From: a virus
DNA: 30,635 nt
Direction: 5' to 3' (one strand)
IMG/VR virus record: IMGVR_UViG_3300045790_001959
Location: 1-30,635 of that record
Shown: piece by piece, positions 10,563 through 26,712 of the stretch
Layout of the letters: every line of letters begins with the position of its first letter
Numbering within the stretch: position 1 is the first letter of the stretch
Program-made: the position numbers and the translations under genes
The notes under the pieces: model-generated
Told to the model about the DNA's origin: nothing
What the model saw: only the letters and a program-made list of their open reading frames with translations
Database searches by the model: none

Positions 10563-10764
10563 TGCACCAAATTTGCACCATTGCCTCGTAAGTCATTGAT
10601 TTAATTGAGGCCCCCGGTTGTCCCATATAACCTAATTTTTTTGATTTTCTATCATTTTCAATCACTTAGCATAATTATAGTTAACACAATCAACCACTTA
10701 AACCCCCGCCCGATAACGCGTGATCGCTTTGGTGCTATTTGGGACTGCACCATTGACTGCACCA
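10563..10764 (+). other. attP: Candidate phage attachment site (attP) region
   Basis: The stretch 10545-10852 upstream of the integrase holds no gene. It contains four exact TGCACCA heptamers in two pairs: 10563-10569 with 10574-10580 (11-base period) and 10746-10752 with 10758-10764 (12-base period). Pairs at about one helical turn, on both sides of a spacer, are what integrase arm-type sites look like. Between the pairs lies the candidate core at 10587-10608, related to two other copies near the terminase genes, and an A+T-rich run at 10630-10690 suited to DNA bending. The exact crossover cannot be read without the host attB sequence. Confidence 0.6.
10587..10608 (+). repeat. Candidate att core, repeat copy A
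   Basis: The core reads CGTAAGTCATTGATTT followed by AATTGA. An 18-base stretch (10589-10606) is identical to the complement of 24431-24448, and 21 of 22 bases match the complement of 25076-25097. It sits seven bases after the left pair of TGCACCA sites. Confidence 0.7.
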
Positions 10765-10779
10765 CACCCCCCGGTATTG

Positions 10780-10819
10780 ACAACCCGGAGTTGTCCATAC
10801 ACTTAAAGTGTAGTACCTT
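10780..10819 (+). promoter_or_regulatory. Integrase promoter overlapped by repressor operator
   Basis: The operator-like palindrome ACAACCCGGAGTTGT is at 10780-10794. Its right arm runs into a TTGTCC -35 (10791-10796), followed after 17 bases by a weak TACCTT -10 (10814-10819). The promoter at 23039 has the same geometry. A TTGACA at 10777-10782 is an alternative -35. The integrase would be repressed by the same protein that controls the other operators. Confidence 0.55.
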
Positions 10820-10852: not shown

Positions 10853-11866
10853 ATGGCGACAATCATAAAACGTGGGGACAACTTCCGGGCTCAGATCCGC
10901 CAAGCCGGACAGCGTACCATGTCCAAATCTTTTCCTAAGAAGGCACTGGCGGATGAATGGGTGCGAGATACAGAGGCCGCTCTCTCAAAAAACACATATC
11001 GAGATGACAAAACTGTTCTGTCTGACGTAATCAAGAGTGCCTTCAGGGTTCTTAATCTTACCGGCGATAAAGCAAAACACTACAAACAGATCGATAAGCG
11101 CTTCGGCCACCTCGCGCTTAAAGAGATAACGAGAGAGGTTCTTTTTGGTTTCGTGGAAGAGCGAAAGGGTGAGGTAAAGCCAAGCACCATCAACCACACA
11201 TTCATTTACCTCGGGACGGTGTTGCGATTTGCCGAGGCTTATATGCTTCTGAAACCAAATATCGAGGAATTTAAGCTAGCGAAGGAGTGGCTTACCGGCC
11301 AAGGGTTTTTGGAAAAAGCAGACAGAAGAACCCGGAGGGTAAGCGACGACGAAATGCAGGCAATCAAAGACGAGTGGATTCTGGACGATTACCAAGGTTC
11401 GTCCGCGAAGGGCTGGTCGCTGCCAGACATGATGAAATTTGCCGTCACGACGGCAATGCGGCGCGGCGAGCAGTTTTGCCTACGCTGGGACGAGTTGGAC
11501 GAGGAGCAAAGAACGGTTGGCTGCTGGCGCAAGCACCCCAAAGGGAAAGTCTACAGCCGCGTGCCGCTGCTCAAGGAGGCGATGGACATTATTGATAGGC
11601 AGGAGCGAAGCAGAGATACCCTTTTTAATATTTCCTCTAACCACGCGGCTAAGGTATTTAATATTTACAGGGACAAGGCTGGTATTAAAGATTTGTGTTG
11701 GCACGACCTTAGACACGAAGGCGTTAGCAGGCTGTTCGAGATGGGAGTCTTCCAAATACCGGAGGTAGCCATGTTCTCAGGGCATCGAGACATCCAGATG
11801 CTGCACTCGTATACGCACCTGAGCGCGGAGCGTATTTCTGCAAAGCTCAAATCCAAGGGGCTATAG
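10853..11866 (+). CDS. int: Tyrosine-family integrase
   Basis: 337 residues with a strong AAGGGGAC ribosome-binding site. It catalyses site-specific recombination between attP and the host attB. The N-terminal arm (residues 1-50) is basic, followed by a helical core-binding domain and the catalytic domain. Catalytic residues can be read: Arg203 in RRGEQ, a Lys in the HPKGKVYSR beta-hairpin near residue 238, His284 and Arg287 in HDLRHEG, His311 in SGHRD and the nucleophile Tyr320 in SYTHLS. The length is usual for the family and nothing appears missing. It lies directly beside the attP-like region and converges on the excisionase-like gene. An operator overlaps its promoter, implying repression in an established lysogen. 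Confidence 0.95.
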   Translation: MATIIKRGDNFRAQIRQAGQRTMSKSFPKKALADEWVRDTEAALSKNTYRDDKTVLSDVIKSAFRVLNLTGDKAKHYKQIDKRFGHLALKEITREVLFGFVEERKGEVKPSTINHTFIYLGTVLRFAEAYMLLKPNIEEFKLAKEWLTGQGFLEKADRRTRRVSDDEMQAIKDEWILDDYQGSSAKGWSLPDMMKFAVTTAMRRGEQFCLRWDELDEEQRTVGCWRKHPKGKVYSRVPLLKEAMDIIDRQERSRDTLFNISSNHAAKVFNIYRDKAGIKDLCWHDLRHEGVSRLFEMGVFQIPEVAMFSGHRDIQMLHSYTHLSAERISAKLKSKGL

Positions 11867-11890
11867 GTTGTTTCAACAACCTTGGGTTGT
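11865..11890. promoter_or_regulatory. Operator cluster between int and the excisionase-like gene
   Basis: Three half-sites alternate here: GGTTGT (11866-11871), ACAACC (11876-11881) and GGTTGT (11885-11890). They form an eight-base inverted repeat AGGTTGTT-TC-AACAACCT (11865-11882) and a standard operator ACAACCTTGGGTTGT (11876-11890). It lies at the junction of two convergent genes and inside the last codons of the minus-strand gene, not at a promoter. There is no T-run, so an intrinsic terminator is unlikely. Confidence 0.5.
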
Positions 11891-12082
11891 AATCTTACTC
11901 AAACCTTCAGCGCGTTTGGCGCTGAAATAGGCCTCAACTACAGCGCGGTCAGCGACACGGTGGCGACCAAGCTTATAAGTTGGACAGCAAAACCGTTCAT
12001 CACTGATCGCGTTGAGCAAACTGCTTTTCTTGATTCCAAAAAGCTCTGAGAGCTCAGTCAAATTCAGATACGGTCGATCCAT
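11873..12082 (-). CDS. Excisionase/AlpA-like DNA-binding protein
   Basis: 69 residues. Residues 6-30 (NLTELSELFGIKKSSLLNAI) form a helix-turn-helix of the MerR/AlpA/excisionase type, followed by a wing-like stretch (YKLGRHRVADRAVVEAYF) with basic residues. Small proteins of this type bend DNA at att sites as recombination directionality factors or act as transcription regulators. The ATG follows the repressor stop without a gap and uses a GGAGG site within the end of that gene, so it is translationally coupled to the repressor. Convergence with the integrase favours an excisionase role. A Cro- or AlpA-like regulator is the alternative. Confidence 0.6.
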   Translation of the reverse strand: MDRPYLNLTELSELFGIKKSSLLNAISDERFCCPTYKLGRHRVADRAVVEAYFSAKRAEGLSKITTQGC

Positions 12083-12737: not shown

Positions 12738-12782
12738 ACAACCTCTGGTTGTATATAATTAAACGAGAGAATACTACGACAA
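12738..12782 (-). promoter_or_regulatory. Repressor promoter with operator
   Basis: The perfect palindrome ACAACCTCTGGTTGT (12738-12752) lies one base upstream of the repressor start codon. Upstream on the minus strand are an A+T-rich -10-like stretch (12752-12763) and a TTGTCG -35 candidate (complement of 12777-12782). The operator would cover the transcription start, giving autorepression. The TAG stop of the helicase gene (12774-12776) lies inside this promoter, so read-through from the replication operon is also possible. Confidence 0.55.
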
Positions 12783-14093
12783 TTTAGAGTTGTCCATCAT
12801 CTTTAGGAGCAAGTCTTGGGTGTCGCCTTTTTGTCGCAACACTTCTTTTACTGCCTTGTCGGCCTTCACATCGGCCAATATGTGAATTATCCGAACCGGG
12901 TGTCTTTGACCCTGTCGGTGCAGGCGAGCGTTAAATTGTTGGTAAAGCTCCAGACTCCAGGGCAACCCGTACCACACGATGATCGATCCGCCAGCTTGCA
13001 AATTTAGGCCGTGTCCCGCGCTTGCCGGGTGCGCGAGCATCACTTTGACTTTTTTCTTATTCCAGCGATCCAGTATTTTAGTGTCACCTTTAAGCAACTC
13101 TGCGCCCTTTATCCTCTGAGCAATACGTTCGGCGTCGATTTTGAAATTGTAAGCCACTAGAACGGGCTCACTTGCGGCCTCAATAATCTCCTCGAGCGCG
13201 TCCAATTTTGCGCTGTGGAGAACCTCGTGCCCTTCATCGGTATAAACCGCGCCGCTGCAAATTTGCAAAAGCTTGCCAATTTTAACCGCCGCGTTCGCCG
13301 CTAACACCTCTCCGCTTTCAATCTCTATAAGAAAATCTTTTTCCATCTGCGCGTAGGCCTTTAAGGCCTTTGGCGGCAGGGGCACTACAATATTGCTGTC
13401 AATTCTGTCTGGTAACTCAAGGTAATCTTTCGCGTCCATTCGCAAAACAAGGTCTGCGACCTTACCGTGCAATTGATCGACTTTGTCAGGGCGCATCTCA
13501 AACTGGCTCCACTGTGGATTACCAACCGGGCGGCAGTAGGCCTCCAGGAATTTACCCCTGGTATCGCCAAGTCGTTTACCTTTGTCTAGCAAATATATCT
13601 GCGGCCAAAGCTCCATTAGGGAGTTTGGCGAGGGTGTCCCCGTTAACTGAACCATTCGTTTGATTTTGCCGCTCTTCACAACCTTTCTCAGTGCCTTCCA
13701 CCGCTGGCTGCTGTGACTTTTGAAGCTGCTGGATTCGTCGATGATCATAGCGTCGTAATGCCATGCGGAGCCTAAATAGTCTATTAACCAAGGAAGGTTT
13801 TCTCTGTTAATGATGTGAATCGGATTTTGTGAGTGCGCGGCTTGCTCGCGTTTTGAGGCGCTAAGGCCTGCGAGGACGGAAAACTTTAGAGCTCTGAGGT
13901 GCTCCCAGTTTGCAATTTCCTCCCCCCACGTGTGTTGCGCTACCCGCAACGGCGCCACAATAATTACTTTCTTGATGTTTCTTGACGCGAGCAAATCAAC
14001 CAACGCAGTTAATGTGCTAACGGTTTTACCAAGCCCCATGTCTAGCCACAGCGCGCACGCCGCGTTATCTTTAATGAATTGCGCGGCGCGCAA
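12774..14093 (-). CDS. SNF2/DEAD-type helicase
   Basis: 439 residues counted from TTG 14093, the only ATG/GTG/TTG start in frame. Walker A is DMGLGKT (residues 18-24), motif II is DESS (118-121), and motif VI is FNARLHRQGQRHPV near residue 390, the SNF2 superfamily-2 signature. Phage members of this family act with a VRR-NUC nuclease and polymerase A in replication or recombination. The TTG start is doubtful: it cuts the conserved QYQLRAAQF entry motif and lies in a hairpin stem (14077-14095). The frame is open upstream through HNQLHQYQ. Real initiation may be at an ATT codon (14129 or 14126) or by -1 frameshifting from the VRR-NUC gene. The family call is firm; the N-terminus is not. Confidence 0.9.
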   Translation of the reverse strand: MRAAQFIKDNAACALWLDMGLGKTVSTLTALVDLLASRNIKKVIIVAPLRVAQHTWGEEIANWEHLRALKFSVLAGLSASKREQAAHSQNPIHIINRENLPWLIDYLGSAWHYDAMIIDESSSFKSHSSQRWKALRKVVKSGKIKRMVQLTGTPSPNSLMELWPQIYLLDKGKRLGDTRGKFLEAYCRPVGNPQWSQFEMRPDKVDQLHGKVADLVLRMDAKDYLELPDRIDSNIVVPLPPKALKAYAQMEKDFLIEIESGEVLAANAAVKIGKLLQICSGAVYTDEGHEVLHSAKLDALEEIIEAASEPVLVAYNFKIDAERIAQRIKGAELLKGDTKILDRWNKKKVKVMLAHPASAGHGLNLQAGGSIIVWYGLPWSLELYQQFNARLHRQGQRHPVRIIHILADVKADKAVKEVLRQKGDTQDLLLKMMDNSKLS

Positions 14094-24204: not shown

Positions 24205-24430
24205 CCTTGGCACACTACCCTGGCACGCTACAGCCCTTGTTTTATATACTATTTATTAAATTTAAAAAGAGTGTGTCAAGTGTGACAACCTATAAAGTAA
24301 TCCACACAGAAATGAGAAAACACCCTTGTAATTGAAGGGTATGCGCCCCCACTGGCGCAGCCACAGCCCCCACTCACCCCCCGTGTGGTTTGCTTTATAC
24401 CCTGGCACACACAGAACATCGGAAAAACTT

Positions 24431-24448
24431 AATTAAATCAATGACTTA
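24431..24448 (-). repeat. att-core-like repeat copy B
   Basis: The complement of these 18 bases is identical to 10589-10606 in the attP-like region. It lies 150 bases before the small-terminase start and has the same orientation as copy C. Confidence 0.7.
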
Positions 24449-24598
24449 GGTGTTCAGGGGTCGCTTTACTGTGCCGGGGTGGGCTGGCACGCTGTTTTTC
24501 CCAGATAAATATCAATAAACAATCTGTAATTGTATTCCCTACTTAGTGTTGTATGCGTCATAATGCTTGGCGTAACCCACTGATAACAAAGGGAAAAC

Positions 24599-24976
24599 AT
24601 GGCTCACAATAAAGACATCGACCTCGATGAGCTCTACAACCTGGCAAGAATCGGGCTGACAGAGGAGCAGATCGCCACGTCATTGGGCGTACACCAAAGC
24701 ACCATGACCAGGCGAAAGAAGGATGACGCAGATTTTGCCGAGGCATTAAAGGCGGGAAAGCAGGCTGGTATCACCGCCGTCACGAGCGCGCTGTTCACTG
24801 GCGCCACGAACGACGCCAAGCCCAGCACAGCAGCGCAGATATTCTTCCTGAAGAACAGGGCCCGGTGGACTGACCGCATAGAGACAGAGCACAGCGGCAG
24901 CGTGAGCGTGGATGTGCAACTCGACGCAGCGATCCAAGCATTGAGAGACGCAGGCATTGACCCTTCATCTTTATGA
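24599..24976 (+). CDS. terS: Terminase small subunit
   Basis: 125 residues with AAGGGA before the ATG. The N-terminal 45 residues contain a helix-turn-helix (LARIGLTEEQIATSLGVHQS) of the type used to recognise the packaging site. The segment AAQIFFLKNRARWTDRIETE is a strong small-terminase signature also seen in phBC6A51-like and related families. The length fits. It is expected to assemble as a ring and load the large subunit onto DNA. It is separated from the large subunit by 248 structured bases, and the whole gene is flanked by att-core-like repeats B and C. Confidence 0.85.
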   Translation: MAHNKDIDLDELYNLARIGLTEEQIATSLGVHQSTMTRRKKDDADFAEALKAGKQAGITAVTSALFTGATNDAKPSTAAQIFFLKNRARWTDRIETEHSGSVSVDVQLDAAIQALRDAGIDPSSL

Positions 24977-25032
24977 TTGGGTTATGTCTAATAACCCGGC
25001 ATCACGCTGCGACAATGCCTGTCGGTGTGCAT

Positions 25033-25052
25033 GGTGCAGTTGCTACTGCACC
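25033..25052. repeat. Perfect inverted repeat containing TGCACCA sites
   Basis: GGTGCAGT (25033-25040) and ACTGCACC (25045-25052) form an eight-base stem with loop TGCT. TGGTGCA (25032-25038) and TGCACCA (25047-25053) are the same heptamer as the arm-type repeats of the attP-like region, here in inverted orientation. Confidence 0.55.
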
Positions 25053-25075
25053 ACGGTTTATCGCCTAGAAAAATG

Positions 25076-25097
25076 TCAATGAAATCAATGACTTACG
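25076..25097 (-). repeat. att-core-like repeat copy C
   Basis: The complement matches 10587-10608 in 21 of 22 bases and copy B in 16 of 18. It is 22 bases from the inverted TGCACCA pair, between the two terminase genes. Confidence 0.7.
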
Positions 25098-25138: not shown

Positions 25139-25179
25139 CCCCAGGCGGCTCTTCGCAAATTCGGGACTCCGGCCTGGGG
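25139..25179 (+). other. Hairpin before the large terminase gene
   Basis: CCCCAGGC (25139-25146) pairs with GCCTGGGG (25172-25179) around a 25-base loop. It lies 45 bases before the large-terminase start. No T-run follows. It could be part of a packaging recognition structure or an RNA element; it does not fold as a tRNA that I can recognise. Confidence 0.4.
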
Positions 25180-25224: not shown

Positions 25225-26712
25225 ATGACAAAGAGCACTTCAAAAAAAGCGGCTTCAAAAAAAGAGCCCGTTGCTCTAACGGAAGAGCAAGAAAACAAGG
25301 CGGCTGAAATTGCAAAAGCCATCGCCATTGTTAAGGATCATAAAAGAACACACCGAATTGAGTATTTTAAACCGTACCCTTGGCAAGCTAAATTTTATAA
25401 AGCAGGTTTAAAAAACAAGCAACGTCTGCTGATGGCTGCAAACAGAGTAGGCAAAACAGCAAGCATGGCAGTGGAAGTTTCTTTCCATCTCACGGGGGAA
25501 TACCCCGATTGGTGGGAAGGAATAACATTTAACAAGCCTACCGCCATCTGGTGCCTGGGCGTTAGTGGCGAGCAATTGCGCGACGTGGTTGTGAAGGAAC
25601 TTTTCGGAGCCTATTTGGGAGACGGAAAATTTGACGGAAACGGATTAATCACCCAACAGAAAGTGTACCAAGTCACCCCTGCCATGGGCACGCCAAGATT
25701 ACCCCGTGACGTTGCGGTTCGTCACAAGAACGGCAATACATCATTAGTGAGTTTTAAAAGCTATACCCAGGGCCAGCACGTACTCATGGGCTCGAGCCAG
25801 GACTTTATATGGATCGACGAAGAGCCCGTGGACCCTACGATATACCCACAAGTGTTGACAAGAACAGCCACGGGCAACGGTGGTTTAGGCGGCTATGTGA
25901 CCATGACTTTCACGCCAGAGAATGGCGTGACTGAGCTTGTCAGCCAGTTCATGGACAATCGCCAGGACGGACAGTTTTTAGCCAACGCCACCTGGGATGA
26001 CGCAAAGCACCTGGCGGAAGACACCAAAAAGCAGCTACTTGCTGCGATCCCTGAATATCAAAGGGACATGAGAAGCAAAGGAATCCCTGTGCTGGGAGAA
26101 GGCATGGTGTTTGCGCTCAGTGAAGAAGTTATTAAGTGCGAGCCTTTTGAGATCCCTGCCCATTATAAGAAATTGTGCGCCATCGATTTTGGAATAACCC
26201 ACCCCACAACCGTTGTCTGGACGGCGTACAACCCCGATAGCGATACGATTTATGTTTTCGATTGTTATAAGAAAGAGGGGGAAATTCCAGCGGTACACGC
26301 AAGCGCCATAAAGTCCAGAGGAAAAAATATCCCAATGGTTTACCCCCACGATGGGGACGCCACCGAGAAAGGCAGTGGCAGGACGCTTGCAGAAATGTAC
26401 GTTGAAAATGGCGTTCTAATGATAGGCAAGTTTACTAACCCCGACGGCTCAAACTATGTTGAGCCTGGGTTGATGGAAATGTTAGAGCGATTCAGAACGG
26501 GAAGGCTGAAAGTGTTCTCCAACCTCACGCCTTGGTTCGAGGAATTTCGCCGATACCATCGCAAAAAGGGAAAAGTCCACAAAAATTTCGACGATTTAAT
26601 GGACGCCACCCGCTACAGCGCTATCTCCGTCACCAGGTTTGGGCAAAACGAATCAGAGCAGCAGCAACTAACCAACAGAACAGGATATACCTCGAATGAA
26701 TACGATTATTGA
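25225..26712 (+). CDS. terL: Terminase large subunit
   Basis: 495 residues. The ATPase has Walker A-like ANRVGKT (residues 72-78) and Walker B FIWIDEEP (Asp198, Glu199). The C-terminal nuclease begins with AIDFGITHP (Asp321) and includes acidic residues in YPHDGDA (Asp376, Asp378) and FDDLMDATRY. It pumps DNA into the prohead and cuts the concatemer. The length is usual. The ribosome-binding site is poor and its ATG overlaps the stop of a doubtful 67-codon frame, so initiation is unexplained. It overlaps the portal gene by 17 bases. Confidence 0.95.
   Translation: MTKSTSKKAASKKEPVALTEEQENKAAEIAKAIAIVKDHKRTHRIEYFKPYPWQAKFYKAGLKNKQRLLMAANRVGKTASMAVEVSFHLTGEYPDWWEGITFNKPTAIWCLGVSGEQLRDVVVKELFGAYLGDGKFDGNGLITQQKVYQVTPAMGTPRLPRDVAVRHKNGNTSLVSFKSYTQGQHVLMGSSQDFIWIDEEPVDPTIYPQVLTRTATGNGGLGGYVTMTFTPENGVTELVSQFMDNRQDGQFLANATWDDAKHLAEDTKKQLLAAIPEYQRDMRSKGIPVLGEGMVFALSEEVIKCEPFEIPAHYKKLCAIDFGITHPTTVVWTAYNPDSDTIYVFDCYKKEGEIPAVHASAIKSRGKNIPMVYPHDGDATEKGSGRTLAEMYVENGVLMIGKFTNPDGSNYVEPGLMEMLERFRTGRLKVFSNLTPWFEEFRRYHRKKGKVHKNFDDLMDATRYSAISVTRFGQNESEQQQLTNRTGYTSNEYDY

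Follow-up and report, generated by a model that had tools for sequence, protein, structure and literature searches.

IHF is a DNA-bending protein of the bacterial host, and in the attP of phage lambda its sites (H1, H2 and H') lie between the Int arm sites and the core. The published consensus is WATCAANNNNTTR, with an AT-rich 5' half (PMC7581858). In lambda cosB (R3-I1-R2-R1), the R sites are TerS sites and are accompanied by an IHF site (PMC4669245). The integrase of KplE1 (intS) controls a promoter overlapping the att region with its binding sites, a precedent for an integrase regulating transcription from an att region (PMC2951348), and helper-embedded PICI satellites link integrases with prophage late genes, once in a terminase gene (PMC10111431).

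Here we describe a 30,635-base virus record (the window, i.e. the whole stretch of DNA analysed) in which the tyrosine integrase gene int lies upstream, followed by terS, terL and an SU10-type portal gene in this order (Table 1). As in lambda attP, WATCAANNNNTTR with an AT-rich 5' half is found between arm-type sites and core; in this phage the motif additionally stands on both sides of terS, and an extended form of it is repeated in many viral contigs. Short repeats and an IHF site next to the terminase genes recall lambda-type cosB; unlike the latter, the repeats match the attP arms, ignore the TerS recognition helix and are located between terS and terL. The KplE1 sites belong to attL, beside the int promoter (PMC2951348), whereas the second copy here lies ~14 kb away by terL, and a PICI satellite inserts into a late gene (PMC10111431), whereas no insertion was seen here and it is the phage's own integrase that matches. 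No description of integrase arm sites together with a terminase was found in the open-access literature searched. GenBank contained no near-identical phage DNA, and neither Rfam families nor a tRNA, as the idea of an att core at a tRNA end would have it, were found in the window.

Table 1. Positions of genes and sequence elements in the window.
Feature	Position	Strand	Remarks
Left attP arm-type pair	10563..10580	-	two TGGTGCA copies (10563/10574), 11-bp spacing
Copy A, IHF-type site AATCAATGACTTA	10589..10601	-	exact WATCAANNNNTTR match; left half of attP, adjoins arm-type pair
Candidate crossover core, inverted repeat GGTTGTCCCATATAACC (GGTTGT-CCCAT-ATAACC)	10616..10632		position between arm pairs; role inferred
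Further attP IHF-type site AATCAACCACTTA	10688..10700	+	exact consensus match
Right attP arm-type pair	10746..10764	-	two TGGTGCA copies (10746/10758), 12-bp spacing; just before likely int promoter
int, tyrosine integrase	10853..11866	+	PF00589, E 1.4e-18; phrog_1 integrase, E 1.1e-41
Copy B region	24205..24500		TGGCAC repeats (24208, 24221, 24403, 24485), AT-rich stretch, IHF site
Copy B, IHF-type site AATCAATGACTTA	24436..24448	+	exact consensus match; ~150 bp before terS
terS, small terminase subunit	24599..24976	+	phrog_309, E 2.5e-29
Inverted repeat GGGTTAT-GTCTA-ATAACCC	24979..24997		just after terS; resembles attP core repeat
Site C arm-type pair	25032..25053		TGGTGCA on + and - strand; motif same as attP arms
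Copy C, IHF-type site AATCAATGACTTA	25083..25095	+	exact consensus match; between terS and terL
Block CTTCGCAAAttcGGGACTCC (CTTCGCAAA-NNN-GGGACTCC)	25151..25171		conserved in front of terL
terL, large terminase subunit	25225..26712	+	PF03237/PF17289

IHF-type sites in the three repeat copies

The initial annotation had recorded an 18-base repeat in three copies, here A, B and C, and read it as a candidate att core. The underlying observations were reproduced: 24431-24448 (+) is the reverse complement of 10589-10606 over 18/18 bases, 25076-25097 agrees with the reverse complement of 10587-10608 at 21/22 bases, and copies B and C lie in the same orientation on either side of terS. The repeats also exceed chance. 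Exact instances of AAATCAATGACTTA, the 14-mer common to the copies, number three in the window and 0 in the reversed-pattern control; A and C form the top-ranked inverted repeat in the 30-kb window. Two features had been overlooked, namely a perfect IHF consensus in each copy and an arm-type repeat, GGTGCAGT, common to the attP region and site C.

The 13-mer AATCAATGACTTA, present in A, B and C alike, is a perfect match to WATCAANNNNTTR. The whole window holds five exact matches to this consensus, against 0.89 expected from shuffles, and four of them are intergenic, where 0.12 would be expected in 2,393 bases; these are A, B, C and the site at 10688-10700. Sites B and C were then compared across relatives found through TerS. 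The match at site C is 9/9 in the window and in 20/20 such relatives examined, and that at site B is 9/9 in 17/20 of the sequences covering the place (the window and 16/19 relatives), including the exact match AATCAACGGCTTG in L014. Eight distinct 13-mers were found among the orthologous B and C sites, with all 12 differences at W, N4 or R positions, so that only the fixed positions are constrained. A crossover core requires a conserved, identical centre; an IHF site does not. Here the centre differs among orthologues as well as across phages, the N4 of the motif being TGAC in 17/95 of the matches listed in viral contigs. In 85 nonredundant copies, WATCAA has an A-rich tract 10-14 bp ahead of it, which fits the published AT-rich 5' half of an IHF site (PMC7581858); this half is present at B and C and weak at A.

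A tie between the 18-mer and the integrase was not supported by a motif scan, in which the motif was common across viral contigs: among the matches listed, a PF00589 integrase was found in 10/50 motif-bearing records and was absent from 40/50. Some records contain 5-33 near-copies, the highest number belonging to a 306-kb phage. A few copies elsewhere follow tRNA ends, as would fit IHF sites next to att sites that are located at tRNAs. When a 30-base motif was compared with annotated phages and plasmids, most of the matches were weak and at the level of chance. The 18-mer is almost certainly an IHF docking site and not an integration core, and is best described as an extended form of the IHF site that is frequent in phage intergenic DNA.

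In the 306-kb jumbo phage (G077; L173-L177, L190), many of the 33 near-copies of AAATCAATGACTTA are arms of long intergenic hairpins, AATCAATGACTTAGCACTTG...CAAGTGCTAAGTCATTGATT. In several phages (L178-L189; L082, L095, L112, L182), an IHF-like motif immediately precedes sigma70-like promoters (TTGACA-N17-TATAAT) and occurs there in either orientation.

Layout of attP and the surroundings of terS

The integrase of the window retrieved no relative from viral contigs as a single query, and relatives were obtained with an alignment query. Related integrases share a common attP layout, in which an arm pair is followed after ~8 bp by TAAGTCATTGATTT (IHF), the core, a second IHF site and another arm pair. 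Copy A is recognisable in this layout as an ordinary IHF site within attP, and the actual crossover core is likely the inverted repeat at 10616-10632, since a core-like repeat (GGTTRTCCCACATAACC) holds the same position between the arm pairs in G010, G011 and G013. The arm pairs lie on both sides of the core and change with the N-terminal domain of Int: YRVLIRKAG is found with TGGTACA, FRAQIRQAG with TGGTGCA and YRAAVRISG with TGGAGCA. The Int N-terminus, a putative arm-binding domain, gave a weak match to Arm-DNA-bind_4 (E 0.004) in 1/5 members.

The palindromes GACAACCCGGAGTTGTC (10779-10795, int promoter) and GACAATTTAGAGTTGTC (12778-12794, before the repressor gene) were also observed, as was GACAACCCTAGGTTGTC upstream of int in G010; all three are likely repressor operators.

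Before terS, an AT-rich tract is flanked by two clusters of short repeats, the second of which includes the IHF site. The repeats vary by phage (TGGCAC, CCGGCAC, CACCCGACT and CACCCTACT), even with near-identical TerS. This composition would fit a putative iteron-type origin, or a late control region or enhancer for the terS promoter. IHF would most likely bend the DNA at all three copies, at A in the part of attP that separates the integrase arm sites from the core, and at B within the repeat-rich control or origin region before terS.

The initial annotation had further raised the possibility that terS is a mobile module acquired through the integrase. In the relatives examined, terS is found in the same place with its flanks at fixed distances, and an empty allele without terS, or clean junctions at the repeats, did not appear among them. 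The visible exchange concerns a part of the gene. Between L010-L013 and L015-L019, the HTH segment (terS codons ~25-48) has been swapped as a block in an otherwise near-identical gene, giving TerS classes with quite different recognition helices (HQATM versus STPTF). No upstream column (0) separates the two classes and a single column of the terS-terL gap does, the W of the site C IHF match. The class differences are confined to the stretch of terS that encodes the HTH, so the repeats at B and C do not follow TerS and the exchange of terS did not use them. The packaging site that TerS recognises may be situated inside terS. Binding of TerS at B or C was considered and rejected on the comparison of the swapped HTH segments.

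Arm-type pair and IHF site between terS and terL

Copy C is accompanied by an arm pair, GGTGCAGT-TGCT-ACTGCACC, whose 8-mer is identical to the attP arms and which lies 30 bp from the IHF site. Apart from the attP arms, the window has no other perfect TGGTGCA pair. A spaced arm pair is present at both attP and C in seven genomes, with other, weaker pairs numbering 0-2 per genome. The arms at the two places also agree in type: the window has GGTGCA at attP and C alike, and GGTACA is found at both in G010, G011, G013, G014, G008 and G002. G104 shows the same pattern in inverted form: in its terS-terL gap, 7 bp separate a perfect GTACCA pair from the IHF site, and both elements are reversed. We regard the divergent G114 as the strongest test and an independent case of C arms matching the attP arms of the same phage. 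Its attP arms are TTGGAGCA, and its gap reads AATCAACGACTTA, 8 bp, TTGGAGCA-N4-TTGGAGCA, a perfect pair 8 bp away from an IHF site. Allowing up to one mismatch, its 30 kb contain only three arm pairs, the C pair and the two in attP.

Taken over the 13 genomes with both regions, site C has the motif and spacing of the attP arms, changing in step with them, in 9/13. Three of the exceptions (G086, G105 and G109) form one clade with GGTACA-type attP arms, yet at C they have only degenerate repeats and lack an IHF site; the fourth, G139, has an IHF site at C without arms there, and its own attP arms could not be defined. The order of arms and IHF site at C differs among genomes. In phages with related integrases and other terminases, arm pairs were found at attP only, with an automatic choice of arms that was unreliable for several genomes, which makes the arrangement at C specific to this terminase lineage. 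Because the relatives share ancestry and are not independent, the independent evidence amounts to a few lineages and not to dozens of contigs.

At the level of sequence, the comparison documents the IHF consensus, the constraint on its fixed positions, the arm pairs at attP and C and their concerted change, and from this co-variation we infer that the integrase would bind site C. Of the other possibilities raised initially, that of secondary integrase sites stands in so far as the site C repeats track the integrase arm-type sites of each phage, the signal residing in the neighbouring 8-mer pair and not in the 18-mer. A second role, for example in packaging, would be compatible with an arm-bearing site that adjoins terL.

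Right of the site C IHF match, two alleles (L004/L010/L011/L016 versus L002/L005/L013/L015/L018) are shuffled against the left-hand types, forming a mosaic junction near the IHF site. The hairpin after terS is suggestive of a second core and could equally be a terminator. The block CTTCGCAAAttcGGGACTCC, conserved in most of L298-L318 and in L408-L409 and diverged in L315, L410 and L414, is a possible, speculative cosN or leader.

Competing explanations and a possible second role of the integrase

Taking the evidence together, the 18-mer is probably an IHF site that would bend attP at copy A and a control or origin region at copy B, with copy C and its arm pair forming an ectopic half-attP for Int and IHF (probability roughly 0.78). 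Among the competing explanations, a lambda-type cosB, in which the paired repeats at C would be TerS binding sites with an IHF bend between them as in lambda R3-I1-R2, is unlikely. Repeats and an IHF site do stand near a conserved block before terL, and lambda cosB does combine TerS sites with an IHF site (PMC4669245). However, the repeats do not follow the wHTH recognition helix of TerS: they are unchanged between L010-L013 and L015-L019, where this helix is fully different and the only gap column splitting the TerS classes is the W of the IHF site, and they match the attP arms in several lineages.

It is distinctly unlikely that the repeat pairs of attP and site C serve a regulator besides Int as operators, for instance an excisionase or a protein that activates the int and late promoters. 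The right attP pair lies just upstream of the likely int promoter, and an HTH_17 protein (11873-12082) is a candidate excisionase; against this, the attP pairs stand on both sides of the core-like repeat, where Int arm sites are usually found, and across the family they differ according to the N-terminal domain of Int. Decay of site C, with its loss in one clade, would suit a functionless relic, a fragment of a former attP that stayed behind after a rearrangement, but this origin is improbable given that the C arms still agree with the present attP arms in each of three specificities (GGTGCA, GGTACA and GGAGCA) and that the IHF site is held under constraint. Very improbable is the initial proposal of the 18-mer as crossover core of an integrase-mobilised terS cassette, for although copy A lies within attP, B and C bracket terS in one orientation and site C bears integrase arm-type repeats, the centre of the motif lacks the identity that crossover needs, attP-type arms are absent at B, no relative examined has an empty site, the TerS HTH is exchanged within the gene, and 10616-10632 is the better core candidate. 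A conserved Int-arm/IHF site beside terL appears to be a better reading than a terS cassette moved by the integrase.

If copy C and its arm pair are such an ectopic half-attP in the terS-terL gap, they would be open to the phage's own Int together with IHF. It can be speculated that Int and IHF on C block terL transcription or adjacent terminase assembly for as long as the genome is bound for integration, and that this block is released in the lytic phase; with abundant Int and a circular genome undergoing integration, terminase expression or packaging would then stay off. Only tentatively do we propose this second job of the integrase, in which, together with IHF, it would hold off terminase expression or packaging from a dedicated half-att site during integration, with site C being kept in step whenever the specificity of the integrase changes.

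The IHF motif is common to attP regions and many other intergenic sites and can thus mimic an att repeat. That an apparent att core turned into a well-known host-protein site calls for caution in predicting att sites from repeats. At the packaging locus, a site of integrase arms and IHF follows the specificity of the integrase in several lineages, and the position of copy C beside sites that look like docking sites of the phage's integrase hints at an undescribed link between DNA integration and packaging. If Int acts at C, this would provide a direct molecular switch for the choice between integration and packaging.
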